Source: Bryobacterales bacterium
Lineage (GTDB): Bacteria; Acidobacteriota; Terriglobia; Bryobacterales; Bryobacteraceae
Assembly (NCBI GenBank): GCA_025463005.1
Contig: JAOAPR010000253.1
Coordinates: forward strand, 1 to 32,800
DNA: 32,800 nucleotides
Reading direction: 5' to 3'
The translations under genes and the position numbers were made by a program. Numbering within the stretch: the stretch's first letter is position 1; each line of letters starts with the position of its first letter. The notes beneath the pieces are model-generated. The model ran no database searches and was not told the origin of the DNA. It worked only from the letters and a program-made list of their open reading frames with translations. Below are positions 872-27,725 of this stretch, one piece after another.

Positions 872-880
872 TGCTATGAT
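872..880 (+). promoter_or_regulatory. Extended -10 of the lipoprotein gene, predicted leaderless start
   Basis: TGCTATGAT is an extended -10 (TG, one base, TATGAT at 875-880). Exactly 7 nt (881-887) separate it from the ATG at 888, so transcription should begin at or within one base of that ATG. No Shine-Dalgarno site is present. This selects 888 over the upstream in-frame ATG at 876, which lies inside the -10 element. Confidence 0.6.
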
Positions 881-887
881 GGCACCC

Positions 888-1247
888 ATGTCCCGCGCTC
901 GCCGATGGCTCATGCTCGCAGGCCTGTCGATGCTGGCTGTCGCCTGCAGCTCGCAATCAGCGGATCCTAAAGCGCTGCCGTCCTGGGTCGGAATCTATCC
1001 CGGTTCGCACGCTCAAGGTAGCGGATCAGACTTCGTTTTCCAGACGAAAGATCCAGCCGAGAAAGTTCTCGATTTTTACCAGCAACAGCTCACCCAAAAC
1101 GGGCTCCACATGGACCAGCGCGGAGGCGGCGAGTATGGCGGACTCCTTTCGGCGGAAGACGATTCCCACCGACGCAGTGTGGTGATCAACATCCGCTCCG
1201 ACAAAGGGACTTCCGAAGTCAGCATAACCCCGGTCGAAAAAAAATAA
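888..1247 (+). CDS. Small secreted lipoprotein of unknown function
   Basis: This 119-residue protein has a basic N-terminus (RARR), a hydrophobic segment and a lipobox ending at Cys20 (LAVAC). It is therefore expected to be cut by signal peptidase II and anchored to a membrane by a lipid. The mature part has an aromatic, glycine-rich start (SWVGIYPGS), a helix-like stretch (KVLDFYQQQL) and an alternating C-terminal section ending EVSITPVEKK. I do not recognise a characterised family. The start at 888 was chosen because the promoter -10 sits 7 nt before it. The aminotransferase start codon follows the TAA directly, with no gap, so the two are probably translated from one mRNA. Confidence 0.85.
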   Translation: MSRARRWLMLAGLSMLAVACSSQSADPKALPSWVGIYPGSHAQGSGSDFVFQTKDPAEKVLDFYQQQLTQNGLHMDQRGGGEYGGLLSAEDDSHRRSVVINIRSDKGTSEVSITPVEKK

Positions 1248-2402
1248 GTGTTCTCGTCCCGCCTGAACTGGACCCAGCGCCCCAACCGCCTGTCGACGCT
1301 CCTTGCGGAAAAACGCCAAGCTGGCGCCCAAGTGCTGGATCTGACCGAGTCGAATCCGACCCGCGTCGGTCTTGCCTATCCCGAAGCCGAAATCCTGGCC
1401 GCCCTGGCGGATGCGAGCGCGCTGCGCTACCATCCGGCGCCCCAGGGAATGGATTCGGCCCGCGGAGCTGTCGCCGGCTATTATCATGAGCGCGGCACGG
1501 ATATTTCAATTTCGAGCGTGCTCTTAACTGCCAGTACGAGTGAAGCTTACGCATTCCTCTTCAAGCTTCTGACGAATCCTGGGGACGAGATCCTTGCGCC
1601 CCGGCCCTCCTATCCGCTGTTCGAGTTTCTGGCCGGCCTCGAGTCGGTGCACATCCGCCAGTATCCGCTGCGATATGACGGTGTCTGGCACGTCGATTTC
1701 GACGCCTTGGAGCAGGCCATCACGCCCCGCACCCGGGGCATCGTGGTCGTGAATCCGAACAACCCCACCGGATCCTTCCTGAAGCGCGCTGAGCTCGATC
1801 GTCTGGATTCGCTCGCCGCCGAGCGGGGCCTCGCGATTCTTTCCGACGAGGTTTTCCGCGATTACGCCTTCGCCGCAGAGGCCGATCGTGCTTCGACCCT
1901 GGCGGGCGATCGTCGGGCGCTCACGTTCTCCATGAGCGGATTGTCGAAGATCGCTGGGCTGCCCCAGATGAAGCTTGGCTGGATTGTAGCCAGCGGGCCG
2001 CATAGCGATCAAGCTCTCGACGCGCTCGAGCTCATCGCGGACACGTATCTGTCGGTGTCGACGCCGGTTCAGGTCGCCCTGCCGCGATTACTTGCGCTTT
2101 CGAATGGGATTTTACGACAGATCCGCCAGCGAACCGCTTCGAATCTGGCTCGATTGCGCGACGCTCTGTACGGATCTGCGGCGACGCTGCTGCGCACAGA
2201 AGGCGGCTGGTACGCCGTGCTGCAGGTGCCGCGAACCCGCACGGAAGAGGAGTGGACGCTCAAGCTGCTCGACGAGTCCGGAATCCTGGTGCAACCTGGA
2301 TTCTTCTTCGATTTCGAATCCGAGGCGTTCCTGGTGGTCAGCCTGCTGCCCGAGCCCTCGATATTTGCAGAAGGGCTGGCTCGGCTGCGCAGCATCATAT
2401 AA
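1248..2402 (+). CDS. PLP-dependent aminotransferase, class I/II fold
   Basis: This 384-residue fold-type I aminotransferase moves an amino group between an amino acid and a 2-oxoacid using pyridoxal phosphate in the cytoplasm. Visible motifs are NPNNPTG (169-175), SDEVFRDY (199-206) and the cofactor lysine in SGLSK (Lys234), followed by MKLGW. An N-terminal LTESNPT segment is typical of the aspartate/alanine aminotransferase group. The exact substrate cannot be read from the sequence. The GTG start abuts the TAA of the lipoprotein gene, so translation is probably coupled. The next gene begins 9 nt after the stop, yet a TATAAT overlapping this gene's stop codon suggests that gene also has its own promoter. 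Confidence 0.9.
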   Translation: MFSSRLNWTQRPNRLSTLLAEKRQAGAQVLDLTESNPTRVGLAYPEAEILAALADASALRYHPAPQGMDSARGAVAGYYHERGTDISISSVLLTASTSEAYAFLFKLLTNPGDEILAPRPSYPLFEFLAGLESVHIRQYPLRYDGVWHVDFDALEQAITPRTRGIVVVNPNNPTGSFLKRAELDRLDSLAAERGLAILSDEVFRDYAFAAEADRASTLAGDRRALTFSMSGLSKIAGLPQMKLGWIVASGPHSDQALDALELIADTYLSVSTPVQVALPRLLALSNGILRQIRQRTASNLARLRDALYGSAATLLRTEGGWYAVLQVPRTRTEEEWTLKLLDESGILVQPGFFFDFESEAFLVVSLLPEPSIFAEGLARLRSII

Positions 2403-2403
2403 T
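2398..2403 (+). promoter_or_regulatory. -10 box of the S9 peptidase gene, predicted leaderless start
   Basis: A perfect TATAAT overlaps the aminotransferase TAA. The S9 peptidase ATG follows after 8 nt. The 8 nt contain no Shine-Dalgarno site, and no good -35 is visible, so a leaderless or near-leaderless start is predicted. Confidence 0.5.
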
Positions 2404-2411
2404 CGCAAGTA

Positions 2412-4739
2412 ATGGCCATCAAACGGATTCTGCTGGGGGTGTTCCTGTTCGCACTGCTTGCGGGCCAGCGGACCCAAGTCTCCGCGCAAGGGAAGTTTTT
2501 ACTCACGATCGACAACATTATGCGAGGGCCGGAGCTTTACGGCTATGCGCCTCAGGACGTGCGCTGGTCGGGCGATAATCAACGGATTTATTTCCAGTGG
2601 AAGCAGGCCAGCGATCCCATCGATAAGCCGCTGGACACATGGATGATCCCGCGCGACAGCGGCTATCCGCGCAAGCTCAACGACGAAGACGCCAAGACGG
2701 CGCCTCCCGCTTCCGGGGATTCGACACGCGATCGGAAACGAACGGTTTATGTTCGGGACGGCGACGTGTTCCTGTACGACTTCACCAGCGATAAAGCGAG
2801 GCAACTCACCAAAACAACGGATGCCGAGAAAGACCCCCATTTCACGCAGGACGAAAAGCGCGTAGTGTTCACACGAGGGGGAAATCTGTACATCCTGGCG
2901 CTCGAGGGAGGAGCACTCGAGCAGATGACCGACATCAAGCCTGCGGCGGTCGCGCCAGAAACCAAACCCGCGGGAGACAAGGTACCCGAGACCAGCCAGG
3001 ATTTCCTGAAGAAGCAGGAAAAGGAATTGCTCGCCGCGGTGCGCGACCGCGTTCGATTGAAGGATGCAGAAGAAGCTAGAAAGAAGCGTGAGAATCCGCG
3101 TAAACCGTTCGAACTCGCGGAGCGCCAGAGCGTCAAGAGCCTGGAGTTGTGCCCCAGCCAAAAATGCGTGATCGCTGTTGTCGAAGAAGGCCCCAAGGGC
3201 GATAAGCCTGACAACGTTCCGAACTACGTGACCGAATCCGGTTACACGGAGGAGATCAAGGGTCGGACCAATGTCGGCGATCCCCAGGAGCGAACACGCG
3301 TGGCAATTCTGGATTCGCTAACCGGCGAGGCGCAATGGGCTGATCCCGGCTTAGGCGATCGCCAAATAGATCTCGATCTGCCGCTCTTCAATGAACAAGG
3401 CACCCGTGCCGTGATGGTGGCGCGTTCCGTGGATAACAAGGATCGCTGGATTCAGTCGCTCGACACGGCATCCGCGAAAACCACCACGCTCTTCCACGAG
3501 CACGACGACGCCTGGCTGGACGGGCCGGGCTATGAGACGCTCGGCTGGCTCAAGAGCGGCGACGAAATCTATTTCGAAAGCGAGCGCGATGGCTGGGATC
3601 ATCTCTACAAAGTCTCCGCGCTCGGCGGCGATCCCAAGCAGCTTACCTCCGGCAAATTCGAGGTCACCAGCGTAGAGCTATCCGAGGACGGCTCGAAGTT
3701 TTACCTCACCACCAGCGAGGCCGGCGCTCCGGAACGCCACTTTTATTCCATGAGCGTGAACGGCGGGCCGCGGACGCGGATCACTACGCAACCGGGCGGT
3801 CATCGCGTCGTGCTTTCGCGCGATGAGAAATACCTGGCGGACGTCTACTCCTATATGAATCGGCCGCCCGAAATTTACACAGGCGAGAACGAGGCCGGCG
3901 CCAAAGAGGAAAAGCGGACCGATTCGCCATCGAAAGACTTTTGGGATTATGCATGGCAGGATGCGCCGATCGTGCAGGTTCCGGCGCGCGAGGGAGCCAT
4001 GATCCCAGCGCGCTGGTTCAAGCCCGCGAACTATCGGCCCGGCGGACCCGCAGTGGTTTTCGTCCACGGCGCGGGCTATCTGCAGAACGTCTTAAAATCC
4101 TGGTCGCCGAACTATCCGCGAGAGTACCTGTTCCATCACTTCCTGATGGAGCACGGTTACATGGTTCTGGATATGGACTACCGCGCCTCGGCCGGCTATG
4201 GCCGCGATTGGCGCACTGCGATCTACCGGCACATGGGCGGCAAGGATCTGGAGGATAACATCGACGGCGCGAAGTGGCTGATCGCGCAAGGCGCCGACCC
4301 CAAGCGCATCGGCATCTACGGCGGCAGTTACGGCGGATTCATCACGCTGATGGCGATGTTCACCAGTCCCGACACGTTCGCGGCGGGGGCGGCTCTGCGG
4401 CCGGTGACGGACTGGGCGCACTACAATCACGGCTACACGTCAAACATTCTCAATACGCCCCAGGCGGATGAGGAGGCGTTCCGCAAATCATCGCCGATCT
4501 ATTTCGCTGAAGGCTTGAAAGGGGCGCTGCTGATCTGCCACGGCATGGTGGATACGAATGTGTTTTTCCAGGATACGGTTCGCCTGGTACAGCGGCTAGT
4601 TGAGCTGCGAAAAGAGAACTGGTCGGTGGCGATGTACCCTGTGGAGAATCACGGGTTCGTGCGGCCCGAGAGTTGGGCCGATGAGTATAAGCGCATCTTC
4701 AAGTTGTTCGAAGACAATCTGAACCGCGAACGTCAGTGA
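2412..4739 (+). CDS. Secreted S9-family serine peptidase (prolyl oligopeptidase / DPP-IV type)
   Basis: This 775-residue protein begins with a signal peptide (hydrophobic run, likely cleavage after VSAQ near residue 26). A long N-terminal half with repeated blades (for example FTQDEKRVVFTRGGNLY and WLKSGDEIYFESERDGWDHLYKV) is the beta-propeller that screens substrates in this family. The C-terminal alpha/beta-hydrolase domain carries the nucleophile in GGSYGGF (Ser639), Asp714 in HGMVDTN and His747 in ENHGF, in the normal order and spacing. It should cleave short peptides in the periplasm or outside the cell. A lysine- and glutamate-rich stretch near residues 190-235 is probably an insertion between propeller blades. 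The gene converges with the SDR gene, with a 6-bp gap. Confidence 0.93.
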   Translation: MAIKRILLGVFLFALLAGQRTQVSAQGKFLLTIDNIMRGPELYGYAPQDVRWSGDNQRIYFQWKQASDPIDKPLDTWMIPRDSGYPRKLNDEDAKTAPPASGDSTRDRKRTVYVRDGDVFLYDFTSDKARQLTKTTDAEKDPHFTQDEKRVVFTRGGNLYILALEGGALEQMTDIKPAAVAPETKPAGDKVPETSQDFLKKQEKELLAAVRDRVRLKDAEEARKKRENPRKPFELAERQSVKSLELCPSQKCVIAVVEEGPKGDKPDNVPNYVTESGYTEEIKGRTNVGDPQERTRVAILDSLTGEAQWADPGLGDRQIDLDLPLFNEQGTRAVMVARSVDNKDRWIQSLDTASAKTTTLFHEHDDAWLDGPGYETLGWLKSGDEIYFESERDGWDHLYKVSALGGDPKQLTSGKFEVTSVELSEDGSKFYLTTSEAGAPERHFYSMSVNGGPRTRITTQPGGHRVVLSRDEKYLADVYSYMNRPPEIYTGENEAGAKEEKRTDSPSKDFWDYAWQDAPIVQVPAREGAMIPARWFKPANYRPGGPAVVFVHGAGYLQNVLKSWSPNYPREYLFHHFLMEHGYMVLDMDYRASAGYGRDWRTAIYRHMGGKDLEDNIDGAKWLIAQGADPKRIGIYGGSYGGFITLMAMFTSPDTFAAGAALRPVTDWAHYNHGYTSNILNTPQADEEAFRKSSPIYFAEGLKGALLICHGMVDTNVFFQDTVRLVQRLVELRKENWSVAMYPVENHGFVRPESWADEYKRIFKLFEDNLNRERQ

Positions 4740-4745
4740 GCGGCC

Positions 4746-5567
4746 CTACACCCGACTGCCACCCGAGCACAGCAGCACTTCCCCCGTGACGTAATCCGAA
4801 AGCGGCGAGCAGAAAAACAGCACCGGCCCTGCCGCTTCCTCTGGAGTTCCGAACCGGCCCAGCGGATTCTGCGCCCGCAGCGCCTCGCGAGCCGCTTCCT
4901 GCACGCCGACCTTGATCTTCCGCCCCTGCACGTCGATCTCGCCACCCAGCGCCTGGGTCAGACGCGTTTCGATGAACCCGAAGCCCACGGCGTTGACGTT
5001 GACGTTATAGCGTCCCCATTCCTTGGCCATGACTTTCGTCAGCCCGATAATGCCCGCCTTACCCGAGCCGTAGCCGGCCTGCCCCGCGATGCCGTCCATC
5101 CCCGAAATAGAGGTGATGTTTACCACTTTGCGCATCACGCGGCGGCCTTCGGAGCTCTCCTTCTTGGCGGTTTCACGAATCCAATTGGACGCGGCGCGCA
5201 GCACCCGGAACGGCGTCACCACGTGAATATCGAGCATGGCCTGAAACTGCTCGTCGGTGGTCTTCTGGATTACGTTGTCCCAGGTGTATCCGGCGTTATT
5301 CACGATGATGTCGAGCGATCCGTATCCCGCGAGCGTGGCGTTCACCAGCTTTTCCGGAAACTCGGGCTTGGTGAGATCGCCGGGCATGGCTTTGGCTGCC
5401 CCGCCCGCCTGGTCGATCAGCGTGCCGGTCTCGAAAACCACGTCGCGATCGAGATCGCTCAACATCATCGAAGCGCCGGCTTCCGCGAGCTGGAGAGCGA
5501 TGGCGCGCCCAATGCCCCGCCCTGCGCCCGTCACCAGGGCCGTACGACCTTTCAGGTCAAAACTCAT
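4746..5567 (-). CDS. Short-chain dehydrogenase/reductase (FabG-like)
   Basis: This 273-residue Rossmann-fold oxidoreductase carries TGAGRGIG (13-20), NNAG (90-93), the catalytic Ser near 153-155 in ITSIS, and Tyr166-x3-Lys170 (YGSGK): the full classical SDR active site. An acidic residue at the end of the second strand (SDLD, 37-40) favours NAD(H) over NADP(H). The length and C-terminal PLGRFGTPEE / YVTGEVLLCSGG motifs match FabG-like 3-oxoacyl or 3-hydroxyacyl dehydrogenases. The substrate is not determined. A 15-residue charged insert (about 134-147) before the catalytic strand is longer than in FabG. The gene stands alone, with its own -10 box 6 nt before the ATG. Confidence 0.9.
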   Translation of the reverse strand: MSFDLKGRTALVTGAGRGIGRAIALQLAEAGASMMLSDLDRDVVFETGTLIDQAGGAAKAMPGDLTKPEFPEKLVNATLAGYGSLDIIVNNAGYTWDNVIQKTTDEQFQAMLDIHVVTPFRVLRAASNWIRETAKKESSEGRRVMRKVVNITSISGMDGIAGQAGYGSGKAGIIGLTKVMAKEWGRYNVNVNAVGFGFIETRLTQALGGEIDVQGRKIKVGVQEAAREALRAQNPLGRFGTPEEAAGPVLFFCSPLSDYVTGEVLLCSGGSRV

Positions 5568-5573
5568 GAATGC

Positions 5574-5582
5574 TGTATAGCA
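5574..5582 (-). promoter_or_regulatory. Extended -10 of the SDR gene, predicted leaderless start
   Basis: On the minus strand TG (5582-5581), one base, then TATACA (5579-5574). Six nt separate the hexamer from the ATG at 5567, which puts the expected +1 on the A of the start codon. No Shine-Dalgarno site is seen. Confidence 0.5.
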
Positions 5583-5599
5583 CAGGCGACGTATGCCAT

Positions 5600-6214: not shown

Positions 6215-6263
6215 GACGGAACCTTCCAGAGCACTCAGCGGTCCATTCGTCGGGAGAAAAATT

Positions 6264-6339
6264 TGGTGGACCTGGACGGGTTCGAACCGTCGACCTCTTC
6301 CATGCCATGGAAGCGCGCTCCCAACTGCGCCACAGGCCC
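6264..6339 (-). tRNA. tRNA-Ala (GGC)
   Basis: A 76-nt cloverleaf on the minus strand. The acceptor stem GGGCCTG/CAGGTCC contains the G3-U70 wobble pair that identifies alanine tRNAs. The anticodon loop ATGGCAT gives anticodon GGC, reading GCC (and GCU) codons, on a CTTCC/GGAAG stem. The T-loop is TTCGAAC. A73 and an encoded CCA end at 6264. Confidence 0.95.
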
Positions 6340-6386
6340 ACGTGTGGGTACTTCGAAGGATCTTTTCCTACGATAACATAGACTCC

Positions 6387-6932
6387 GTGACAGACCGGAA
6401 TCAGGCGTGGGAACTTTTGTGCGAATTCACGAAGTCGGACAGCCTGCGAAGGCACGCGCTGGCGGTAGAGACCTGCGTCACCGCCTACGCCCGGAAGCTC
6501 GGCCAGGACGAAGACAAGTGGTCCGTCACCGCGCTGCTGCACGATTTCGATTACGAAATGCATCCCGATGCGCCGGATCATCCCATGAAAGGCGAGCCCA
6601 TCCTTGCGGGGCGCGGCGTGGACGAGGAGATCCGCCGGGCGATCCTTTCCCACGCCAACTATAGCGGCGTGCCGCGCGTTTCGCTGCTCGAGAAAACGCT
6701 CTTCGCCTGCGACGAGCTGGCCGGCTTTCTCACCGCCGTCAGCTACGTTAAGCCCGGGCGCAGTATCCAGGAAGTGGACGTAAAGAGCGTCCGGAAGAAG
6801 CTCAAAGACAAGGCCTTCGCACGATCAGTAAGCCGCGAAGACATTATCAATGGCGCCACTGAGCTCGGAATCGAACTCGACGATCATATCGAGTTCTGCA
6901 TTCGCGCTATGCAGGCGCGGGCCGCGATCTAG
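6387..6932 (+). CDS. HD-domain phosphohydrolase-like protein
   Basis: This 181-residue cytoplasmic protein has the HD metal-binding signature: His23 in LRRHALAVE, the His52-Asp53 pair in LLHDFDYE, a run of further histidines (HP at 59-60 and 65-66) and Asp109 in FACDELAG. This spacing matches the stand-alone HD-domain hydrolases that are often annotated HDIG-domain protein. The substrate is unknown, with nucleotides and phosphate monoesters common in the family. I place the start at the GTG at 6387, because the open frame upstream of it only crosses the tRNA-Ala gene in antisense. A weak TAACAT hexamer lies 7 nt before the GTG, so this gene too may be leaderless. Confidence 0.83.
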   Translation: MTDRNQAWELLCEFTKSDSLRRHALAVETCVTAYARKLGQDEDKWSVTALLHDFDYEMHPDAPDHPMKGEPILAGRGVDEEIRRAILSHANYSGVPRVSLLEKTLFACDELAGFLTAVSYVKPGRSIQEVDVKSVRKKLKDKAFARSVSREDIINGATELGIELDDHIEFCIRAMQARAAI

Positions 6933-6941
6933 GGCTTTAGC

Positions 6942-7070: not shown

Positions 7071-7934
7071 CTAATTCTTCAGCTCCGCCATGATCTGATC
7101 CAGCTTGTTCACGACATTCGGGTTAACCCACAAGCCCCCATTCGTCATAAACACCTTGGCGATATCATCCTTGCTCTTGCCCTCGCGGACCATAGAGATC
7201 ACGGTCGCCGGAAGCTTCACGGTGACGTCGCGATAATCCATCAGGTACTGGCGCTTGGAAACCGGGCCGTGGCCCGGGATCACGGTGTCGAAATCGAGCT
7301 GGAGTACCCCATCGAGAGTCTTGCCCCACTCCTTCATGCTTCCGCCGTTCGCGTAGTCAACATTGGGGCCGTTGTTGGCGCCGATATCGCCGCTCGCCAG
7401 GACGCGCAGCGCCGGGAAATAAACCACCGCATCGCCATTAGTATGTCCGCGGCCGAAGTATTTCATGCGGACTTCCTTGCCGCCCAGAAACAGATCGGTT
7501 TCGTCGGTGAACACCACGCGCATCACGCCCGGAGCCTTGTTTTTCACCATGGTGTCGCGAGCATTCTTGTGCGCGATGATCTCCGCCGTGGGAAGGAACT
7601 TCTCATTGCTGCCGGTATGGTCGCCGTGCAAGTGCGTATTGAGCACGTACTTGATTGGCTGGTTGGTGACGCTCTTTACCTTGTCAACGATGTCCTGGAA
7701 ATCGTACTCGAACTTATCGTCCACCAGGATCACCCCTTCGTTGGTCACTAGGACGGTGGAATTTCCGCCGTCTCCGATGATCGCGTACAGGTCCTCGGCG
7801 ACTTTGCTGATCGCGTTATTGGCTTGCTTGGGCTGCTGTTTTCCCTGGGGCTGGGGAGCCTGTGTATAGGCGATCCACGTGCATCCCAGTGCGACCGCCC
7901 CGGCGGAAAGGCGTACGACTAGTGTCCGGCTCAT
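7071..7934 (-). CDS. Secreted metallo-beta-lactamase-fold hydrolase, paralogue 1
   Basis: This 287-residue protein has an N-terminal signal or anchor segment (about residues 5-25) and a zinc-binding MBL fold. The main ligands are visible: HLHGDH (His101, His103, Asp105, His106), His164 in GRGHTNGD, Asp183 in ASGDIG and His222 in VIPGHGP. All positions needed for a binuclear zinc site are therefore present. The MBL fold hosts beta-lactamases, thioesterases, glyoxalases and lactonases, and the substrate here cannot be told. It is the last of three tandem paralogues, and residues 1-10 (MSRTLVVR) and the spacing of every metal ligand are the same as in paralogue 2. A copy of the shared -10 element precedes the ATG. 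Confidence 0.88.
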   Translation of the reverse strand: MSRTLVVRLSAGAVALGCTWIAYTQAPQPQGKQQPKQANNAISKVAEDLYAIIGDGGNSTVLVTNEGVILVDDKFEYDFQDIVDKVKSVTNQPIKYVLNTHLHGDHTGSNEKFLPTAEIIAHKNARDTMVKNKAPGVMRVVFTDETDLFLGGKEVRMKYFGRGHTNGDAVVYFPALRVLASGDIGANNGPNVDYANGGSMKEWGKTLDGVLQLDFDTVIPGHGPVSKRQYLMDYRDVTVKLPATVISMVREGKSKDDIAKVFMTNGGLWVNPNVVNKLDQIMAELKN

Positions 7935-7941
7935 GCCGGAG

Positions 7942-7950
7942 ACTATATCA
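7942..7950 (-). promoter_or_regulatory. Extended -10 of MBL paralogue 1, predicted leaderless start
   Basis: TGATATAGT on the minus strand, with hexamer TATAGT at 7947-7942 and 7 nt to the ATG at 7934. The element is shared with the two other MBL paralogues at identical distance. No Shine-Dalgarno site is present. Confidence 0.62.
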
Positions 7951-7968
7951 AAATTCGACCTGCGGTGG

Positions 7969-8835
7969 TTAGCGCTTCAGCTCGGCCAGCATCCCGTCGA
8001 AGCCGCGCTGGAATTGCAGACCCGTGGGAGCCCATCCGTACTTGTCCTGCACGACCTTGGCGATCTCGTCCCGGCTCTTGTTCTGGCGAAGCATGTCGCT
8101 CACCTCCATGCGCAGCTTTTCGATATTGTTGCGATAGGTGAGCATGTCGGCTTTCTTCGCCACCGGGCCATGGCCCGGAATCACGGTGTCGAAGTCGAGC
8201 TTCATGGCTCCGTCCAGGGTTGCCGGCCATTCCTTCAAGCTGCCGCCCCCGCTGTAGTCGATCAGCGGGCTGGTACCCGCCATTAGATCGCCGGTGTGAA
8301 GGATTCGCAAGGCCGGAAAATACACCATGGCATCCCCGTTCGTGTGGCCACGGCCGAAGTAGCGCATCTGGACTTGTTTGCCGCCTAGAAAGACATCGGT
8401 CTCCTCGGTGAAAACGACGCGCGGCGCGCCGCTCTGTTTGCCCTCAATCATGTTCTTTCGGGCGTTCGCGGTTGAGATGATCTCGGTCGCCGGCGGAAAC
8501 TGCGCATTGCTGCCGGTGTGGTCGCCGTGGTGGTGGGTGTTCAGCACGTACTTCACCGGCTGAGGCGTAACGCTCTTGATCTTCGCCATGATGTCGTTGA
8601 AGTCGTACTCGAACTTGTCATCGACGACGATCACGCCTTCGTTGGTGACGTAAAAGGCCACATTGCCGCCGTCGCCTTCGATCTCGTACAGATCGTCCGT
8701 GATCTTGTTGAGTTTGTTGTTCGCCTGCTTGGCCTGCTGTTTTCCCTGGGGTTGGGGAGCCTGGGTATAGGCGATCCACGCGCAGCCCAACGCGATGAAT
8801 ATTGCAGAAACACGCACCACCAGTGTCCGGCTCAT
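7969..8835 (-). CDS. Secreted metallo-beta-lactamase-fold hydrolase, paralogue 2
   Basis: A 288-residue paralogue of both neighbours with a signal or anchor segment and a complete zinc site: HHHGDH (His101, His103, Asp105, His106), His164, Asp183 in HTGDLM and His222. Long identical blocks with paralogue 1 (QAPQPQGKQQ, THxHGDHTGSN, VDDKFEYDF, LDFDTVIPGHGPV) show recent duplication. The loop after Asp183 (MAGTSPLIDYSGGGSLKEW) instead resembles paralogue 3, so this copy is intermediate in sequence. The stop codon lies 34 nt before paralogue 1, and that gap carries the next promoter element. It is probably periplasmic. The substrate is unknown. Confidence 0.88.
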   Translation of the reverse strand: MSRTLVVRVSAIFIALGCAWIAYTQAPQPQGKQQAKQANNKLNKITDDLYEIEGDGGNVAFYVTNEGVIVVDDKFEYDFNDIMAKIKSVTPQPVKYVLNTHHHGDHTGSNAQFPPATEIISTANARKNMIEGKQSGAPRVVFTEETDVFLGGKQVQMRYFGRGHTNGDAMVYFPALRILHTGDLMAGTSPLIDYSGGGSLKEWPATLDGAMKLDFDTVIPGHGPVAKKADMLTYRNNIEKLRMEVSDMLRQNKSRDEIAKVVQDKYGWAPTGLQFQRGFDGMLAELKR

Positions 8836-8842
8836 GCGGGCT

Positions 8843-8851
8843 AATATATCA
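8843..8851 (-). promoter_or_regulatory. Extended -10 of MBL paralogue 2, predicted leaderless start
   Basis: TGATATATT on the minus strand, with hexamer TATATT at 8848-8843 and 7 nt to the ATG at 8835. Same element and spacing as in the other two paralogues. No Shine-Dalgarno site. Confidence 0.62.
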
Positions 8852-8871
8852 GAAGCTGCGATCGGCCGCTC

Positions 8872-9765
8872 TTACTTCAGCTCGGTCATCATCCCCGGCA
8901 GGCTCCACTGCATGTTGAGGCTTCCGGGCTGCCAGTTATATTCCGCAGTCATCACCTTGGCGACTTCGTCCTGGCTCTTGCCCTGGCGGATCAAGGTCTG
9001 GACGCGCGTTCGCATAGCCTCTGCCTTGTTGCGATAGGTCAGAAGATCGGCCTTCTTCGATACTGGACCGTGCCCGGGAATCACCGTATCGAAATCGAGC
9101 TGTCCCATCACGGTGTCGAGAGTCTTGGTCCATTCGACCAGGCTGCCGCCTCCCGGATAATCGATCAAAGGCGTCGCGGCGGTGAACATATCGCCGGTGT
9201 GGAGCACGCGCAGCGCGGGAAAGTACACGAACGCGTCGCCATTGGTGTGCCCGCGGCCGTAGTATTTCGCCCGAACCTCTTTGCCGCCCAGGAACAGATC
9301 GGTTTCATCGGTGAACGTCACGCGTGCGGGAACCATGTTGGGGGGCGCATTCGACTGCTTCTTCTGCACGATCCCGTCATGCGCATTGCGCGTCGAGATG
9401 ATCTCGGCCAACGAAGAAAAGCGAGTGTTCCCGCCGCTGTGGTCGGCGTGATAATGCGTGCTCAGGATGTATTTCACGGGCTGCGAGGTCACCTTCTTGA
9501 CGTTGGCCATGATCTCGTCATAGTTCTGTTCGAACTTGTCGTCGACCATGATCACGCCTTCATTAGTGATGTAGACGGCCACGTTCCCCGCCCCACCGCC
9601 GTCGATGACGTAAAGATCGTCCGTAATCTTGATGAGGGTAAATGGTGCGGGAGCTTTCGCTTGCGCGGGAGCCTGCTTGCCCTGCGGATTCTGCGTATAG
9701 GCCACCCACGCTCCAGCCAGCGCCAGAAATCCGGCGAATAGCCGTACCACCAATGTCCGTTTCAT
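8872..9765 (-). CDS. Secreted metallo-beta-lactamase-fold hydrolase, paralogue 3
   Basis: The first gene of the tandem cluster encodes 297 residues with a signal or anchor segment. Its zinc site is HYHADH (His104, His106, Asp108, His109), His173, Asp192 and His232. It is the most divergent of the three: HADHSGGN replaces HGDHTGSN, there is an Ala/Pro-rich linker at about 29-41, and a short insert near residue 143 (PNMVPA). The core GRGHTNGD and LDFDTVIPGHGPVSK blocks are unchanged. It lies 75 nt downstream of cpoB on the same strand, but its own -10 element suggests independent transcription. The substrate is unknown. Confidence 0.88.
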   Translation of the reverse strand: MKRTLVVRLFAGFLALAGAWVAYTQNPQGKQAPAQAKAPAPFTLIKITDDLYVIDGGGAGNVAVYITNEGVIMVDDKFEQNYDEIMANVKKVTSQPVKYILSTHYHADHSGGNTRFSSLAEIISTRNAHDGIVQKKQSNAPPNMVPARVTFTDETDLFLGGKEVRAKYYGRGHTNGDAFVYFPALRVLHTGDMFTAATPLIDYPGGGSLVEWTKTLDTVMGQLDFDTVIPGHGPVSKKADLLTYRNKAEAMRTRVQTLIRQGKSQDEVAKVMTAEYNWQPGSLNMQWSLPGMMTELK

Positions 9766-9772: not shown

Positions 9773-9781
9773 AATATATCA
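9773..9781 (-). promoter_or_regulatory. Extended -10 of MBL paralogue 3, predicted leaderless start
   Basis: TGATATATT on the minus strand, with hexamer TATATT at 9778-9773 and 7 nt to the ATG at 9765. The spacer has no Shine-Dalgarno site. It lies in the 75-nt gap after cpoB. Confidence 0.62.
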
Positions 9782-9840: not shown

Positions 9841-10743
9841 TCATTTGGTGCGCTTCTTGCCATTGTTCAAGGGAGGGCGCGCCGGGCTACTCAGCTCCCT
9901 CAAGTACTGCCTCGCCTGAGCGACCTTGTCGTCGGTGGGATACTTCGCGATGAACGCAGTGAATTCCTTCTTCGCCTCGACATTGCGGTCAAGCTTCATC
10001 AGGGCGACGGCCTTGCCGTACAACGCGTCGCGCGTGATGGGATTCTCCTGATAACGCTCCAGCACAGCGTCGTAGGCCTTGACGGAGTCCTCGTACTGCT
10101 GGCCGCGGTCATAGATCACGCCCATGTAGTATTGCGCCTTGGGCGCATTTTCCGCCGACGTCGGAAACTGCGCGATGAACGCACGAAACTCATCCATGGC
10201 GAGCTGGTTCTGGCCGCTCCTGAAATCGCGCTCGGCGGCTTGGAAAGCCACATCTGCGGAGGCGCCCGCGGTGGTTCCAGCACCTGGTCCGGCGGCCGAC
10301 GGCGGCGGAGCGGCGGGCGGAGCGCTCAACGTTTTCACGTTATTCAGGATTTCAGTCAGCTTCTCGTCGTTTCTGGCCAGCCGGCGGGTCAGCTCATCCA
10401 TGGTGGTTTGCAGCGCGCCGAACGACTGGGACATCTGGTCCACCCTGGTGCTCATCGAGGTGATCGGTTGCACCAGTTTGTCCTGTTGCGCGGCCACCGC
10501 GGACGTCATCGTTTGCTGCAGCGCGCCCAGGCTCGCCACCAGCTTCGAGTTTGCATCCAACGTCTGTTTCAACAGCGCTTCCAGTTCGGCGTTTTTCTGG
10601 TCCTGCGCGTCTTTAGACTGCCGGATCTGGTTCTGGAGCTGCGCGACATCCCGCTGCACTTCCCGAATCAGATCCTTTTCCGACTGGGCCTGGAGCAGCC
10701 CACCCAGCATGAACCCGGATACCAGCAAGCGTGAAAACTTCAT
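9841..10743 (-). CDS. cpoB: CpoB/YbgF-like cell-division coordinator (Tol-Pal system)
   Basis: A 300-residue periplasmic protein with a signal peptide, a long coiled-coil region (about 25-140, rich in Gln, Asp, Glu and Lys heptads), an Ala/Pro/Gly linker (about 145-170) and three C-terminal TPR-like repeats (for example FRSGQNQLAMDEFRAFIAQFP). In characterised bacteria this architecture, at the end of the tol-pal operon, coordinates outer-membrane constriction with peptidoglycan synthesis. The ATG at 10743 is preferred over the GTG at 10746 because AGGAGA lies 7 nt upstream of it. The gene is separated from pal by a short gap with a strong hairpin, so its expression may be tuned separately. 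Confidence 0.88.
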   Translation of the reverse strand: MKFSRLLVSGFMLGGLLQAQSEKDLIREVQRDVAQLQNQIRQSKDAQDQKNAELEALLKQTLDANSKLVASLGALQQTMTSAVAAQQDKLVQPITSMSTRVDQMSQSFGALQTTMDELTRRLARNDEKLTEILNNVKTLSAPPAAPPPSAAGPGAGTTAGASADVAFQAAERDFRSGQNQLAMDEFRAFIAQFPTSAENAPKAQYYMGVIYDRGQQYEDSVKAYDAVLERYQENPITRDALYGKAVALMKLDRNVEAKKEFTAFIAKYPTDDKVAQARQYLRELSSPARPPLNNGKKRTK

Positions 10744-15161: not shown

Positions 15162-15167
15162 TATAAT
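15162..15167 (+). promoter_or_regulatory. -10 box of recN, predicted leaderless start
   Basis: A perfect TATAAT ends 8 nt before the GTG start of recN at 15176. The spacer has no Shine-Dalgarno site, and no good -35 is visible 16-18 nt upstream. Confidence 0.55.
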
Positions 15168-15175: not shown

Positions 15176-16852
15176 GTGCTGGTCGAGCTCGCGGTCGAAA
15201 ACTACGCGGTCATCGAAAAGGTCCGCGTGCGGTTTCACCCCGGCTTGAACCTGCTCACCGGCGAAACCGGAAGCGGCAAATCCATCGTGGTCGACGCCCT
15301 GGGTCTGCTGCTGGGCGGCCGCGCCTCCCCGGAAATGGTCCGCACCGGGGCCACCCGCGCCCGCGTGTCGGGAATTTTCGAGGTCGCCGATTCGCCTGCT
15401 CTGGCGAAGCTGCTCGAAGACGCCGGGATCGAAATCGAGGACCGCGAGCTTCTCGTCGAGCGCGAAATCCAGGCCGGCCGCAAGTCGCGAGCTTTTGTAT
15501 GCAACCGTCCCGCTACCGCTGCGCTGCTCAAGGATCTGGCAGCCCACTTGGCCGATATCCACGGCCAGCACGATCAGCAGCAGCTCTTCTCGCCCGCCGT
15601 CCAGTGCGACATGCTGGACGCGTTCGCCGGGGCCGTCGACTTGGCCGGCCAAGTGTCTGAAGCGTTCCAGGCTTGGAAGCGGGCAGCGGTGGAACGCGAG
15701 GAGCTCGACCGCAGCGCCCAGGAAAAGCTTCGACTGGCCGACTTGTGGGCGTTCCAGCGCAAAGAAATCGAGGCGGTCGGACCCAAGCCCGGCGAGGATG
15801 CCGATCTCGAAAATGAGCGCCGGGTGTTGCGTAACGTCGTCCGGCTTCAGGAGCTGGCCGGCGGCGCATACGCAGCACTCTATGAAGACCCCTCAAGCGC
15901 CTCCGCGCAGGTAGGCTCGATCGCCAAGCGCCTGGAAGAATTGGCCCGTATCGACGACAGCGCGCGAGAGATGCTCGCGCAGCTCCAGCCCGCGTCGATC
16001 GCGCTTGCGGAGACCGCACATTCGCTCCACCACTACTTGGGGAACCTGGAAGCCGATCCCGCACGTCTAGATGAAGTAGAAGACCGGCTTGCCGCTCTCG
16101 AAAAGCTGAAGCGTAAGTATGGGCCGTCGGTTGAGCAAGTCCTCGCCTTCCTTGAAGAAGTCAGCACCAACCTCTCGGCTGTGGAAAACGCGGATGAGCG
16201 CCGCAATGCTTTGCAAAAGGAAGTCGCCGGATTCGCTAAAGGCTACGAAACGGCGGCGAAAAAGCTCTCCGCCCGCCGTCATGAGGCCGCGAAGGAACTC
16301 AGTAAGCGTGTCGAGCAGGAGCTTTCGGCGTTAGCCATGGAAAAGACCCGCGTCGGGATCCGCGTCGAGCCCGCTGAATGGTCCGAACGCGGCGCCGACA
16401 CGGTCGCGTTCCTGATCGCGCCCAACGTCGGCGAGGAACTGAAGCCGCTGGACAAGATCGCCTCGGGAGGTGAGCTATCGCGTGTGGCTCTGGCTCTCAA
16501 GACGTGCACGTCGGGTGCGCCAAAGAAGAATGCTCTCCCGCGCACGCTGGTGTTCGACGAAGTCGACGCGGGCGTGGGCGGCAGCGCCGCAGAATCGGTT
16601 GGCCGGCGTCTCAAAAAGCTCTCCGGCGCGAATCAGGTGATCTGCGTAACGCATCTGCCCCAGATCGCAGGGTTCGCCGATCACCACTATTTCGTCGAAA
16701 AGCACTCGGAAGGCGGCCGCACCCTCGCCTCGATCGAAGAACTGACGCCCGACGCGCGCACCCGCGAAATCGGCCGCATGCTTTCCGGTGAGCGCATCAC
16801 CCAGGAAGCCCTGCGCCACGCCGAGCAACTCCTGAAGATGGCGGCCAAGTAA
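15176..16852 (+). CDS. recN: DNA repair protein RecN
   Basis: A 558-residue SMC-like ATPase acting in double-strand break repair. The N-terminal Walker A is GETGSGKS (29-36). A long coiled-coil region occupies the middle (about 160-370). The C-terminal half holds the ABC signature SGGELS (about 430) and the Walker B region TLVFDEVDAGVGG (near 460), followed by a histidine switch (THLPQIAGFADHH). The order and total length fit RecN well. It starts at a GTG 8 nt after TATAAT. Repeats further upstream suggest regulated expression, as is usual for recN, but I see no motif I can assign to LexA. Confidence 0.95.
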   Translation: MLVELAVENYAVIEKVRVRFHPGLNLLTGETGSGKSIVVDALGLLLGGRASPEMVRTGATRARVSGIFEVADSPALAKLLEDAGIEIEDRELLVEREIQAGRKSRAFVCNRPATAALLKDLAAHLADIHGQHDQQQLFSPAVQCDMLDAFAGAVDLAGQVSEAFQAWKRAAVEREELDRSAQEKLRLADLWAFQRKEIEAVGPKPGEDADLENERRVLRNVVRLQELAGGAYAALYEDPSSASAQVGSIAKRLEELARIDDSAREMLAQLQPASIALAETAHSLHHYLGNLEADPARLDEVEDRLAALEKLKRKYGPSVEQVLAFLEEVSTNLSAVENADERRNALQKEVAGFAKGYETAAKKLSARRHEAAKELSKRVEQELSALAMEKTRVGIRVEPAEWSERGADTVAFLIAPNVGEELKPLDKIASGGELSRVALALKTCTSGAPKKNALPRTLVFDEVDAGVGGSAAESVGRRLKKLSGANQVICVTHLPQIAGFADHHYFVEKHSEGGRTLASIEELTPDARTREIGRMLSGERITQEALRHAEQLLKMAAK

Positions 16853-18090: not shown

Positions 18091-18119
18091 TGTACACGGA
18101 CTTTTCACGGTGGTAGGAT
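18091..18119 (+). promoter_or_regulatory. Promoter of the orphan structured RNA
   Basis: TGTACA (18091-18096) is followed after exactly 17 nt by an extended -10, TGG-TAGGAT (hexamer 18114-18119). The predicted start is near G18126. There is no open reading frame of convincing quality downstream. Confidence 0.5.
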
Positions 18120-18125
18120 TAAGTT

Positions 18126-18291
18126 GTCCAGTTGTGGAACCTTTTTTTAAAGGTTTCATCGCGTCTCTTTCTCGAGGGAAGAATCGCCGACTGCCCGGTG
18201 AACTTCCCGAAAGCTTGGCGAGCTACGCGACCTAGCGTCAGTGGTGAGCCGGCCGGTGAGTATCCTCCTCCGAGTACTCACCGGCTTTTTT
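18126..18291 (+). ncRNA. Candidate structured non-coding RNA, about 166 nt, unassigned
   Basis: The stretch has its own promoter and ends in an intrinsic terminator. In order it forms a 9-bp hairpin (18136-18157, loop TTTT), a closing helix TCGCGT (18159-18164) with ACGCGA (18225-18230) extended by CTC/GAG, and inside it a hairpin GGGAAG (18176-18181) with CTTCCC (18203-18208). Within that lies an inner stem CGCCG/CGGTG (18185-18200). CGCC (18185-18188) can instead pair with GGCG (18217-18220), forming a pseudoknot. The next gene downstream is convergent, so it is not the leader of a gene. It does not match 6S, SRP, RNase P, tmRNA or the riboswitch consensus sequences I can recall. Confidence 0.55.
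18252..18291 (+). terminator. Strong intrinsic terminator
   Basis: A perfect 11-bp stem GCCGGTGAGTA / TACTCACCGGC with a 12-nt loop is followed by six T residues (18286-18291) on the plus strand. The opposite strand lacks a T-run after the stem, so it works only for rightward transcription. Confidence 0.88.
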
Positions 18292-18329
18292 ATTGCCGAA
18301 TTTTAATTCAGGGTGGTTGTTCAGCGTGT

Positions 18330-21931: not shown

Positions 21932-21979
21932 ACAACGTTGTCTCCTCGGAAGGGTAGATCCGCCCCGTTGGAAGCCGTT

Positions 21980-23389: not shown

Positions 23390-23396
23390 CCCCGGT

Positions 23397-24299: not shown

Positions 24300-24341
24300 G
24301 ATTCAGCGTAACAGGCTGGCATACTGAGTCTGGAGGCGACG

Positions 24342-24995
24342 ATGGCGAAAAAAGTCGGAGTGCTCGGATCGGGCGTGGTGGGGAGAACGCTCGCCGAGGG
24401 GTTTCTCAAACATGGATACGAAGTCATGCTGGGTACCCGCGATCCGGCCAAAGGCGACGTGCCGGCGTGGGTATCCGCGCACCCTGGCGCGAAGGCGGGG
24501 ACCTTCCGCGAGACTGCGGTTTTCGGAGATATCGTCGTCCTGTCCGTTCTGGGCCGCGTGATTGAAGAAGTGATCGAACAAGCCGGACCGGATCATCTGA
24601 CCGACAAGGTCGTAATCGATACTACTAACCCGCTGGCGGAAAGCGCGCCGGTGGATGGAATCATGGAGTTCACCACCGGACCGAACGATTCGCTAGGCGA
24701 GAAGGTGCAGAGTTTGCTCCCCAACGCGCATGTGGTGAAGGCCTTCAACAGCGTGGGTAGCCCGCTCATGGTGAATCCGAAATTCGAGCAGGGCACGCCG
24801 ACCATGTTCCTTTGCGGCAATTACCCGGAAGCGCGACGCCTGGTATCCGAGATTTGCGTGCAGTTCGGGTGGGAACCTTTTGACTGCGGCGGGATCGCGG
24901 CATCGCGTGCGCTGGAGCCGCTATGTATGCTGTGGTGCCTGCCTGGCTTCCAGCGCAACGATTGGCGCCACGCGTTCAAGATGCTGACCCATTAA
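24342..24995 (+). CDS. NAD(P)-binding protein of the F420-dependent NADP reductase family
   Basis: 217 residues. The N-terminal dinucleotide-binding loop is GVLGSGVVGRTLAEGF (GxGxxG, about 8-13), followed by a Rossmann domain with VIDTTNPLAE (about 92-101) and VKAFNSVGSPLM (about 133-144), which are typical of NADPH:F420 oxidoreductase-like proteins. F420 use is only known for some members. Many bacterial homologues act on other substrates. A GGAGG Shine-Dalgarno site lies 5 nt before the ATG. A possible extended -10 TGGCATACT is at 24317-24325, giving a leader of only about ten nt. Confidence 0.8.
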   Translation: MAKKVGVLGSGVVGRTLAEGFLKHGYEVMLGTRDPAKGDVPAWVSAHPGAKAGTFRETAVFGDIVVLSVLGRVIEEVIEQAGPDHLTDKVVIDTTNPLAESAPVDGIMEFTTGPNDSLGEKVQSLLPNAHVVKAFNSVGSPLMVNPKFEQGTPTMFLCGNYPEARRLVSEICVQFGWEPFDCGGIAASRALEPLCMLWCLPGFQRNDWRHAFKMLTH

Positions 24996-25011
24996 CGCCA
25001 CAGCAAAATGG

Positions 25012-25031
25012 GGGACAGTCACCAGTGTCCC
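25012..25031. terminator. Hairpin in the convergent gap 24996-25049
   Basis: GGGACA (25012-25017) and TGTCCC (25026-25031) form a 6-bp stem with an 8-nt loop between the convergent F420-reductase-like and M14 genes. There is no T-run on either side, so terminator function is doubtful. The symmetric GACAGTCACCAGTGTC core could also be a scattered REP-like repeat. Confidence 0.35.
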
Positions 25032-25049
25032 GACCACAAACGACCCTTA

Positions 25050-27710
25050 CTAATACAGGGCATTAAACAGCAGCTTAAACGTCCCGTGCGGCTGCCCGCG
25101 GAACGCGATCTCGGGACCGAACAGCACCACTTTCCCTGCCCCGACTTTCGCCTCGGCAACCGCCGTCGATCCGTCCAGATGCTCCTGTCCCCAGGCCCAT
25201 CCACTGGCGAGCGTTTCCTTTCCAGCGAACCATGCGACCTTGCGACCCTCACCGTCCAGCCGGAACACCGGGCTGTTGTCGAAGAACACGATCGCTTCCG
25301 GCCCCATTCCGAAGGCCAGCGGATTCGTCGTGTCCACGGTCGCGCGCATCAGCGATCCCGGCACGTAAAATGTGTCGCGTGAAAGCCCCGCCAATGGATC
25401 GCTCACAGGTAGGCCAAGGAGCCGCGCCAAGCCGGTGGAGCTGCCGATCGTAATCAAAGTCCCTCCCGCCTGTACAAATTGCTTGAGCTGGGGAACGGTC
25501 TTGTCTTCAGTGATCTGGCCCAGCCAGCCGCGGTATTCGGCCGGAATGGTCGCTGCCGACGGCTGCGATCCGCCGCCGCCTTTCCGGAACGCGCCGTCGG
25601 TGAGCACCAGCACATCATATTTGCGGTTGAGATCGCCTTTGTCGAGCGTCTGCGGATACACCACCTCGAACGGAAACTCGAACTGTTCAAACAGCCAGCG
25701 GGTCCACCCCGAGGGAGCCAGGCCGCCGTACTGATCGTACAGGCCGATGCGCACCGGCTTGAGCTTGAGAATATCGGCTCCGGGTCCGGCTGTCGACGCC
25801 TCGACCGGCACACCGAGCTCAGCCGCGCCTTTCTCCAGAACCGCGCGCGCGGCGGAGCTGGCCGGGACCCAGATCGTTCCATCGCGTTTCAGCCAATACA
25901 CCTCGCTGCCTGCTTTCAGGAGCCGGTTCACCAACGTGAACGAATTGTTGATGCGGTGGCTGATCAGGTACCCGGCAGGATTCTCCGGTCCCTGAATTGA
26001 TTTGACAGGCGGGCTGACCAGACCGTTGACCTTGGCGAACGGGCCATCGAAGGCGTCAAGAATCCGATCGTATTTAATCCCCATTTGCAGCGCCAGCGTC
26101 CAGCCCGCGATGTCGTACGGAGCAACCGGCGGACCTCCGGGGTAGCGCATATCGTTCGGATGATCCTGCGGCTCGAACATATCGAGCACGTGCGGGCGGA
26201 AGGCCTGGGCGGTCTTCACCACAAACGAACCGGCCGGATAACTCTTGCCCGCCGCCTGAAACTCCGCGGTTGAGCGCAGCACCGTAATCCCGGTCTTCAG
26301 CAGCGCGTTCACGAATTCGACCGCAGTCGGGAAATCGTCCTGATTGGAGGGAATCACGTAACCGCGCGGATCGCGATATTGAGAGTCGTGCAGCACGGTA
26401 TCGTACAGCGTCGCAGCGAGAGGCCCTCCGGAAGTTCTGGACTGCTGTGCCGCGGCGGCGCGCAGCGCCTCGATCCGTTTAGGCGTGATGGTCCAGCTAT
26501 CCTGGCTGCCCTTCTCGATGGAGTTCCTGCCCATGCGGTAAATGTTGAACAGCAGCGTCTCGCGGTAACGCGACGCATAGTCGAGAACGGCCCGGTTCTG
26601 GCTGATGTCGTAATCAATCGACTGGCGATAATGCCAGCGCTGCGGCGCGATCGGCAACGGCCAGTCGCCCTGGGGCAACTGCTTGTCGGGAACCAGGGGA
26701 ATATCCACCGGTGTGGGGTTGCCGATGATTTCCGTCAGGATTCCGATCATATTGTGAAAGTACGAAATCGTGCGCAGCCCGCCGTTCCACCACGTGGAAT
26801 AATTCGAGCCGCTGCGCATGGCCGATCCGGCCTTGCCTTCGGCGATCAGTCGGCTGTGCATGGCCGACCCCAGCATTTCAACGCTGAGTGGGATTAACGG
26901 ATCCAGATTGTAGTTGAAAGGATCGCGGAAGGGCGGGATGAACACCACCGCGCCCGCGGGACCGGTCTGGTGATGGTTGTAAACGATCTGCGGAAACCAC
27001 TCCAGGAACATCTGCCGGTTCATGTTGGTCGTCTCGGGCATCGCCGACAGGAAGAAATCGCGGTTATCGTCGTGACCGATGTACTTGTGATACAGGCGCG
27101 GAAGACCGTTCAGGCTGCGCTTGGCCGAATCCGCCTCGCGCATGTACCAGTTGGCCACCAGTTCCTGCCCGTCCGGATTCGCCTGCACATAAAGCTGGAT
27201 GACATCATCCAGCAGCCGCGTGGTTTCCGGATCGTTGCGGCTGACCATCTGGTAGACCATCTCCATCAACTGCTGTGAGCCGACGGTCTCACTCGCGTGC
27301 AGGCCGCCGTCTATCCAGACCACCACTTTGCCCTGGCGCGCCAGTGCGTGCGCCTCGTCGTCCGTAAGTCCCTCGGCCAGCGCGAGCCTTCGCGCGATGT
27401 CCTTGTACTTGTCGAGGCTCCGAAGGTTCTCAGGCGAGCTTACAATCGCCATGTATTGGCGGCGACCCTCGGCGGTGGCGCCCATGTCCACCAATTTCAT
27501 CCGGTCCGATTCCGTCGCCAGCTTCTTCCAATAGGCTTCGAGCTGGGTGTAGGTTGCGACCTGGTAGTCGTCACCTATGTTGAAGCCCAGCGCTTCCTTA
27601 GGGGTCGTGATAGGGGAGGGAGACTGTGCGGAGACACTCCACGTACACAGGATTGCGGCGCACCAGGTTCGCACCAGGGCAATCCTGGCCCTCCGGCTCC
27701 GATTGGCCAT
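25050..27710 (-). CDS. Secreted M14-family zinc carboxypeptidase
   Basis: 886 residues with a signal peptide (cleavage near SAQS, residue 29). The zinc site is visible: His138 and Glu141 in GGLHASETVG, and His246 in YNHHQTG. The likely general base is Glu327 in ILTEIIGN. The domain spans about 35-340, and the following 500-odd residues hold an uncharacterised C-terminal region with a glutamine-amidotransferase-like fold. A longer open frame to 27770 exists, but the ATG at 27710 gives a normal signal peptide and follows a TACAAT box (27720-27725) by 9 nt. The protein should trim peptides in the periplasm. It faces clpX across a divergent gap. Confidence 0.9.
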   Translation of the reverse strand: MANRSRRARIALVRTWCAAILCTWSVSAQSPSPITTPKEALGFNIGDDYQVATYTQLEAYWKKLATESDRMKLVDMGATAEGRRQYMAIVSSPENLRSLDKYKDIARRLALAEGLTDDEAHALARQGKVVVWIDGGLHASETVGSQQLMEMVYQMVSRNDPETTRLLDDVIQLYVQANPDGQELVANWYMREADSAKRSLNGLPRLYHKYIGHDDNRDFFLSAMPETTNMNRQMFLEWFPQIVYNHHQTGPAGAVVFIPPFRDPFNYNLDPLIPLSVEMLGSAMHSRLIAEGKAGSAMRSGSNYSTWWNGGLRTISYFHNMIGILTEIIGNPTPVDIPLVPDKQLPQGDWPLPIAPQRWHYRQSIDYDISQNRAVLDYASRYRETLLFNIYRMGRNSIEKGSQDSWTITPKRIEALRAAAAQQSRTSGGPLAATLYDTVLHDSQYRDPRGYVIPSNQDDFPTAVEFVNALLKTGITVLRSTAEFQAAGKSYPAGSFVVKTAQAFRPHVLDMFEPQDHPNDMRYPGGPPVAPYDIAGWTLALQMGIKYDRILDAFDGPFAKVNGLVSPPVKSIQGPENPAGYLISHRINNSFTLVNRLLKAGSEVYWLKRDGTIWVPASSAARAVLEKGAAELGVPVEASTAGPGADILKLKPVRIGLYDQYGGLAPSGWTRWLFEQFEFPFEVVYPQTLDKGDLNRKYDVLVLTDGAFRKGGGGSQPSAATIPAEYRGWLGQITEDKTVPQLKQFVQAGGTLITIGSSTGLARLLGLPVSDPLAGLSRDTFYVPGSLMRATVDTTNPLAFGMGPEAIVFFDNSPVFRLDGEGRKVAWFAGKETLASGWAWGQEHLDGSTAVAEAKVGAGKVVLFGPEIAFRGQPHGTFKLLFNALY

Positions 27711-27719
27711 ATGGATCTG

Positions 27720-27725
27720 ATTGTA
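27720..27725 (-). promoter_or_regulatory. -10 box of the M14 peptidase gene, near-leaderless
   Basis: TACAAT on the minus strand ends 9 nt before the ATG at 27710, so the leader would be about 3 nt. No Shine-Dalgarno site. It supports the 27710 start. Confidence 0.4.

Follow-up and report, generated by a model that had tools for sequence, protein, structure and literature searches.

Start-adjacent -10 boxes predict leaderless or nearly leaderless mRNAs in a Bryobacterales genome

Leaderless transcripts with a -10 box adjoining the start codon are reportedly found in Mycobacterium tuberculosis, where Cortes and colleagues are said to have described them in 2013. The leaderless arrangement has been tested in Deinococcus and bacteria at large have been scanned for it (Zhong et al., 2025, Life Sci Alliance, PMC12340547), and that paper reports that the -10 element is sufficient without a -35 element, that there is a spacing requirement and that the mRNA is leaderless. 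In an earlier survey, leaderless genes were predicted in 3/3 genomes of Acidobacteria at a mean of 13.3% of genes (9.7-19.4; Zheng et al., 2011, BMC Genomics 12:361, PMC3160421), and the pattern, which a first-pass annotation of the present DNA had taken to be undescribed for this lineage, had thus been predicted at phylum level by 2011. The main text of PMC5397173 makes no mention of Acidobacteria, and a literature search on leaderless genes and transcription start sites in Acidobacteriota, made by titles and abstract openings and leaving subscription papers mostly uncovered, found no 5'-end mapping. Here we analyse a 32,800-nucleotide (nt) stretch (the window; contig JAOAPR010000253.1 of assembly GCA_025463005.1, a Bryobacterales bacterium), in which eight named genes carry a -10-like hexamer 6-9 nt before their start codon, and we conclude that such boxes are very probably promoters that yield leaderless or nearly leaderless mRNAs. 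The boxes and genes are as follows (distances run from the final base of the hexamer to the first base of the start codon).

875..880, + strand: -10 box TATGAT, 7 nt before the lipoprotein ATG at 888, with TGn at 872-873 (TGcTATGAT)
888..1247, + strand: small lipoprotein gene, predicted leaderless; open reading frame listed from the ATG at 876, lipobox judged by eye
2398..2403, + strand: -10 box TATAAT, 8 nt before the S9 ATG at 2412, overlapping the aminotransferase TAA stop (2400-2402)
2412..4739, + strand: S9 prolyl oligopeptidase-family gene (Pfam PF00326, PF00930), predicted leaderless
4746..5567, - strand: SDR gene (Pfam PF13561, PF00106), possibly leaderless
5574..5579, - strand: weak -10-like box TATACA with TGn (TGcTATACA), 6 nt before the SDR ATG at 5567
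6374..6379, + strand: -10-like box TAACAT, 7 nt before the GTG at 6387 of an HD-domain gene; absent from the first-pass annotation
7071..7934, - strand: MBL-fold gene 1 (Pfam PF00753), predicted leaderless
7942..7947, - strand: -10 box TATAGT with TGn (TGaTATAGT), 7 nt before the MBL ATG at 7934
7969..8835, - strand: MBL-fold gene 2 (Pfam PF00753), predicted leaderless
8843..8848, - strand: -10 box TATATT with TGn (TGaTATATT), 7 nt before the MBL ATG at 8835
8872..9765, - strand: MBL-fold gene 3, predicted leaderless in the window, not in its closest orthologues
9773..9778, - strand: -10 box TATATT with TGn (TGaTATATT), 7 nt before the MBL ATG at 9765
15162..15167, + strand: -10 box TATAAT, 8 nt before the recN GTG at 15176
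15176..16852, + strand: recN (Pfam PF02463), predicted leaderless with a GUG start; N-terminus kept in relatives
25050..27710, - strand: M14 zinc carboxypeptidase gene (Pfam PF00246), predicted nearly leaderless
27720..27725, - strand: -10 box TACAAT, 9 nt before the M14 ATG at 27710

All eight boxes of the named genes are read directly from the sequence where the first-pass annotation had placed them, five of them (5/8 genes) with TGn. Six of the eight match TAnnnT at 7-8 nt and the M14 box does so at 9 nt; the SDR box, which ends in A, falls outside TAnnnT and is the weakest of the eight. The seven genes at 6-8 nt amount to about five independent cases, since the three MBL-fold genes (7071-9765, - strand) are tandem paralogues, the window genes being ~52-64% identical to the other copies in relatives. 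Three MBL copies stand likewise in two related loci, L042 and L044. The Pfam search gave no match for the lipoprotein, and the HD-domain gene matches PF01966.

We sampled the draft genome to which the window belongs as one contig (6.36 Mb, 342 contigs). The sample, 80 stretches and the window, holds 975,335 bases (~15% of the genome). In it 768 genes were called, of which 740 have an uncut 5' end, and 711 called starts have at least 80 nt upstream; these became 684 once the window's 27 were removed. In the window the caller missed the lipoprotein and gave the HD-domain gene (at 6342, the GTG at 6387 being a candidate start) and the M14 gene other starts, so all three lie outside the window's 27. 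A TATAAT-like box was defined as TAxxxT with at least 5/6 matches to TATAAT, and background was taken from 200 shuffles and from distances of 14-59 nt. In GC-rich Deinococcus the 5/6 rule proved too strict, finding just 2/124, and TAnnnT was therefore counted too. An initial gene caller, whose coding model was weak, had returned 348 genes in 511 kb with truncated starts and was replaced. On the E. coli locus L200 the caller used here found 34 of the 45 given annotated genes, a set that leaves out appX, rmf and genes cut by the ends, and placed 26 of the 34 starts exactly.

Outside the window, TATAAT-like boxes stand at 6-8 nt before 20/684 starts, compared with a shuffle mean of 3.2 (maximum 10 of 200 shuffles) and 3.9 expected from distances of 14-59 nt. 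The search of TAnnnT against shuffles that the first-pass annotation had proposed, run here on the sampled ~15% at 6-8 nt, returned 57/684 compared with a mean of 20.1 (maximum 30 of 200) and 18.8 expected from the other distances, and its claim that the boxes exceed chance is thus borne out without the window. The excess appears both at starts with a divergent neighbour or a gap above 60 nt (TAnnnT, 34/357 vs 11.2) and at short-gap genes (22/295 vs 7.5), while 32 starts whose upstream neighbour is not known fall in neither class. ATG is the start codon of 45/57 TA-led genes and of 498/684 genes overall. The TAnnnT surplus of 37/684, ~5% of called starts, is probably a lower bound, as are the other counts of start-adjacent boxes, because only 26 of the 34 E. 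coli starts were placed exactly. A free-spacing motif search on the 711 starts, window included, returned TAnAcT with spacers of 6, 8, 7 and 10 nt at a log-likelihood gain of 91.8 (six shuffled sets gave 19.0-29.7); GGAG emerged separately. The window itself is enriched relative to the rest of the sample, with 5 TATAAT-like boxes at its 27 called starts.

The same pipeline was applied to control genomes. In 200 kb of E. coli K-12, TATAAT-like boxes stood before 0/142 starts and TAnnnT before 2/142 (6.6 in shuffles); in 200 kb of Deinococcus plasmids, TAnnnT stood before 10/124 (1.6 in shuffles). The raw TAnnnT rates of 8.3% here and 8.1% in Deinococcus are not to be equated, because the background is much higher here. 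A genome of the same genus, G171, gave TATAAT-like boxes at 6/154 starts (vs 0.5) and TAnnnT at 10/154 (vs 4.9), and three further genomes pooled post hoc (G111, G168 and G053) gave TAnnnT at 8/191 compared with 2.2, with G086 (0/51 vs 0.2) outside the pool. This lineage survey is thin, and we do not claim presence throughout the phylum from these genomes. Around recN, TATAAT-like boxes at 6-8 nt precede 25/387 starts in Bryobacterales, 4/59, 9/47 and 0/11 in other Acidobacteriota and 4/105 in Nitrospirota (0.9 expected), counts that we set aside as evidence because the same orthologues recur many times; going by the Nitrospirota count, the pattern need not be limited to Acidobacteriota.

Conservation was followed at recN, whose nearest named relatives are 57-88% identical and mostly belong to Terriglobia, Bryobacteraceae and Bryobacterales metagenome-assembled genomes. 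We compared 42 of 49 loci, leaving out L069, L070, L082, L083, L086, L087 and L090 (partial, truncated or distant), and defined a Bryobacterales-type set of 26 loci with at least 54% identity and the start present, which with the window makes 27. In 26 of these 27 a box lies 5-21 nt from the conserved start, in 24 as exact TATAAT, and the 38 nt preceding the box have a median pairwise identity of 0.26; the lone boxless locus is L065, a record titled Nevskia soli. The gap from box to start is 8 nt in 15/26 and 6-9 nt in 18/26, ranging from 6 to 19 nt, and GTG serves as start codon in 17 of the 26 boxed loci. The single distance that the first-pass annotation saw in its seven genes does not extend to recN orthologues. 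Among 16 more distant recN loci, TATAAT is absent from the 45 nt upstream, and two have another TAnnnT at 6-9 nt. As a separate observation, the records of L045 (titled Bordetella parapertussis, recN 73% identical) and L065 (54%) look mislabelled.

The other genes were kept to differing degrees. TATA[GT]T with TGn stands at 7 nt in 7 of 11 MBL upstream regions of relatives, namely all five MBL gene 1 and gene 2 orthologues (gene 1 in L042, L043 and L044; gene 2 in L042 and L044) and single copies in L046 and L060; a copy in L050 has TAGACT 12 nt from its start. For S9 we counted 9 of 14 relatives' loci (L209-L222; at least 59% identity, aligned by residue 18), and all nine have TAnnnT at 6-8 nt with varying inner bases. 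The five uncounted loci are L215, whose alignment begins at residue 31 and where TAGCAT precedes an in-frame ATG by 8 nt; L220, with an alignment beginning at the same residue and no box; the partial L219 and L221; and L222 (29% identical), with TAAGTT 6 nt before a TTG. TAnnnT stands at 6-9 nt in 7/14 SDR loci and 6-10 nt before an in-frame start near the N-terminus in 9/12 M14 loci (L239-L250, leaving out L251 at 36% and L252 at 33% identity); at the M14 loci and at some of those for S9 and SDR the scan took in several in-frame starts, a bias towards finding boxes. We set aside binomial P values for S9 and SDR, which take no account of relatedness or of the overlap with stop codons. The lipoprotein box and its 7-nt spacing are kept in the sole close orthologue, L254 (66% identical), the distant L255-L263 having an unaligned N-terminus.

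Taken together, the position-specific excess, its absence from E. coli and presence in Deinococcus, and the retention in orthologues despite diverged flanks support the prediction of leaderless or near-leaderless transcripts made in the first-pass annotation. The contrast that it drew with Shine-Dalgarno-led genes survives in part. By eye, none of GGAG, GAGG and AGGA occurs within ~18 nt before the eight named genes, and a Shine-Dalgarno-like site precedes clpX and two further genes, at 10743 (-) and 21931 (-). Such a site is also missing from the aminotransferase (1248), MFS (16858) and engB (31617) genes, however, and its absence upstream of the boxed genes is partly trivial because the box fills that space. 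A search of this genome for an intact 16S 3' end found none, which is uninformative since the draft may lack 16S.

Several observations weigh against this interpretation. TAnnnT exceeds shuffles only ~2.8-fold, a modest excess, so that many single matches must be chance; the motif search reached the TA..T motif only from T-rich or TA seeds (TATAAT, TAnnnT and TTTTTT), flat and purine seeds leading to GGAG, and for short-gap genes alone the TA fit of 29.9 is not above the full-set shuffles. No -35 signal was found 16-18 nt upstream of the 20 boxes, where the mean best match to TTGACA was 2.10/6 compared with 2.33 at all positions. The same-class genome G083 has no significant TAnnnT excess (6/123 vs 2.8, P 0.06). 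Among orthologues, the recN gap is 10-19 nt in 8/26, and a strict zero leader is therefore not conserved in recN; the closest SDR orthologue (93% identical) has no box, and the MBL gene 3 orthologues in L042-L044 have GAAAGGA or GAAAGGG in its place, which may reflect a switch between leaderless and Shine-Dalgarno-led initiation.

The longer recN gaps bear on the alternative that the boxes are real promoters with short leaders (~3-13 nt) and non-Shine-Dalgarno translation, or that translation starts at a codon further down. The recN orthologues with a 10-19 nt gap mostly show no evident Shine-Dalgarno site by eye, the M14 box lies at 9 nt and TATAAT-like boxes at 9-11 nt number 11 compared with 5.9 expected, all of which would suit such leaders. 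Yet the excess is highest at 6-8 nt, and conservation of the protein's N-terminus pins down the recN start, and we regard this alternative as unlikely overall. A ribosome-binding role for an AT-rich unstructured stretch, through S1 or open mRNA and not through transcription, would account for the enrichment of some permuted AT hexamers, which reach ~2.6-fold at 6-8 nt (TAATAT, 10 vs 3.9); however, TATAAT itself reaches 3.7-fold (22 vs 5.9), TAnnnT shows the strongest enrichment among eight A/T patterns of the form XYnnnZ (3.0-fold, compared with 2.0 for TAnnnA and 0.5-1.5 for the others) with its peak at 6-8 nt, and recN retains the exact hexamer in 24/26 loci between nearly random flanks, making this role very improbable.

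The boxes might be suspected to be AT-rich hexamers that arose by chance and caught the eye of a reader in search of them, given the richness of the window relative to the remaining sample and the paralogy of three of its genes, but leaving out the window does not abolish the excess and the recN boxes are kept where flanks diverge; as a general account chance is refuted. Nor is it credible in general that the TA of the boxes is merely the stop codon of the upstream gene. The S9 box overlaps the TAA or TAG stop of the aminotransferase, which contributes part of its TA, in the window and seven of the nine orthologues, the stop occurring in two different registers among relatives, but such an overlap is seen in 0/20 TATAAT-like and 3/57 TAnnnT boxes outside the window, the S9 box of L218 is separate from the aminotransferase stop and L217 has no aminotransferase match. 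The stop-codon account is refuted in general, with S9 alone the possible exception.

We therefore return to promoters that abut the start codon. Primary-sigma-factor -10 elements would be set so that transcription begins at the start codon or within ~0-3 nt of it. With RNA polymerase beginning ~7 nt downstream of the box, the textbook distance, a 6-nt gap would put +1 on the A of ATG and an 8-nt gap would leave a 2-nt leader, and the ribosome would need no Shine-Dalgarno site to use the 5'-terminal AUG or GUG, a route coexisting in this genome with ordinary Shine-Dalgarno-led genes. The extended form that the first-pass annotation had included in the motif does not generalize: TGn precedes 2/20 boxes outside the window compared with 5/51 boxes at 14-49 nt, which is no enrichment, and the extended -10 is true of the MBL genes and not of the start-adjacent class. 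The genome also has a 173-amino-acid open frame with a CarD domain and a second CarD match in a 1149-amino-acid frame that is probably mfd. PMC4593161 reports that CarD stabilises open promoter complexes and lists it for Acidobacteria, and CarD might conceivably act at the promoters considered here. Tentatively, and with somewhat worse than even prospects, the pattern could be extended to a scenario in which, in Bryobacterales, a lone -10 without -35 and mostly without TGn, perhaps with an open complex held by CarD, lies directly against the start codon and serves as standing promoter for a conserved gene set to which recN belongs; selection would fix TATAAT while the start drifts from a leader of 0-2 nt to one of ~13 nt, and MBL gene 3 and SDR orthologues would switch between Shine-Dalgarno-led and leaderless initiation.

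Apart from these promoters, the window contains a candidate conserved structured small RNA at ~18125-18292 (+ strand), between the MFS gene and an FAD-dependent gene, downstream of recN. The stretch 18110-18300 folds with a z of -5.97; an Rfam search with the candidate came back empty, both at the gathering score and with E values allowed up to 5, and blastn found it in 13 related loci at ~70-90% identity, the match spanning just 85 nt in two. In an alignment of 14 sequences, the promoter-like CTGTACA and TGnTAnnnT are invariant upstream, the latter by its look an extended -10, as is a terminator-like hairpin whose tip carries CCTCC and could pair with Shine-Dalgarno sites; two-sided changes affect 11 of 38 predicted pairs. 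This candidate may outrank the leaderless finding as a lead.

If the interpretation in terms of leaderless promoters is right, the start codon and the promoter could be read jointly for many genes of this lineage, gene callers that rely on Shine-Dalgarno sites may misplace starts in it, and shifts of orthologues between Shine-Dalgarno-led and leaderless initiation could be traced at base resolution. For leaderless genes as a class, existing knowledge is unchanged. The Mycobacterium tuberculosis case, as reported by Cortes and colleagues (2013), concerns another phylum and transcripts mapped by RNA-seq. Deinococcus-Thermus shares the same TANNNT, a few bp before the open reading frame, as its -10, but the arrangement was tested by experiment there and is reported for ~30% of open reading frames in that phylum (PMC12340547), whereas our evidence is read from DNA. 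The arrangement also resembles the TA-led genes of Zheng et al. (2011, PMC3160421), which have the same TAnnnT ~12 nt upstream (counted from the first T) above dinucleotide shuffles. That work is a prediction for three Acidobacteria genomes; to it the present analysis adds a sampled draft of Bryobacterales type and conservation in orthologues, and the predicted leaderless expression here would be a new instance of what was predicted for the phylum.

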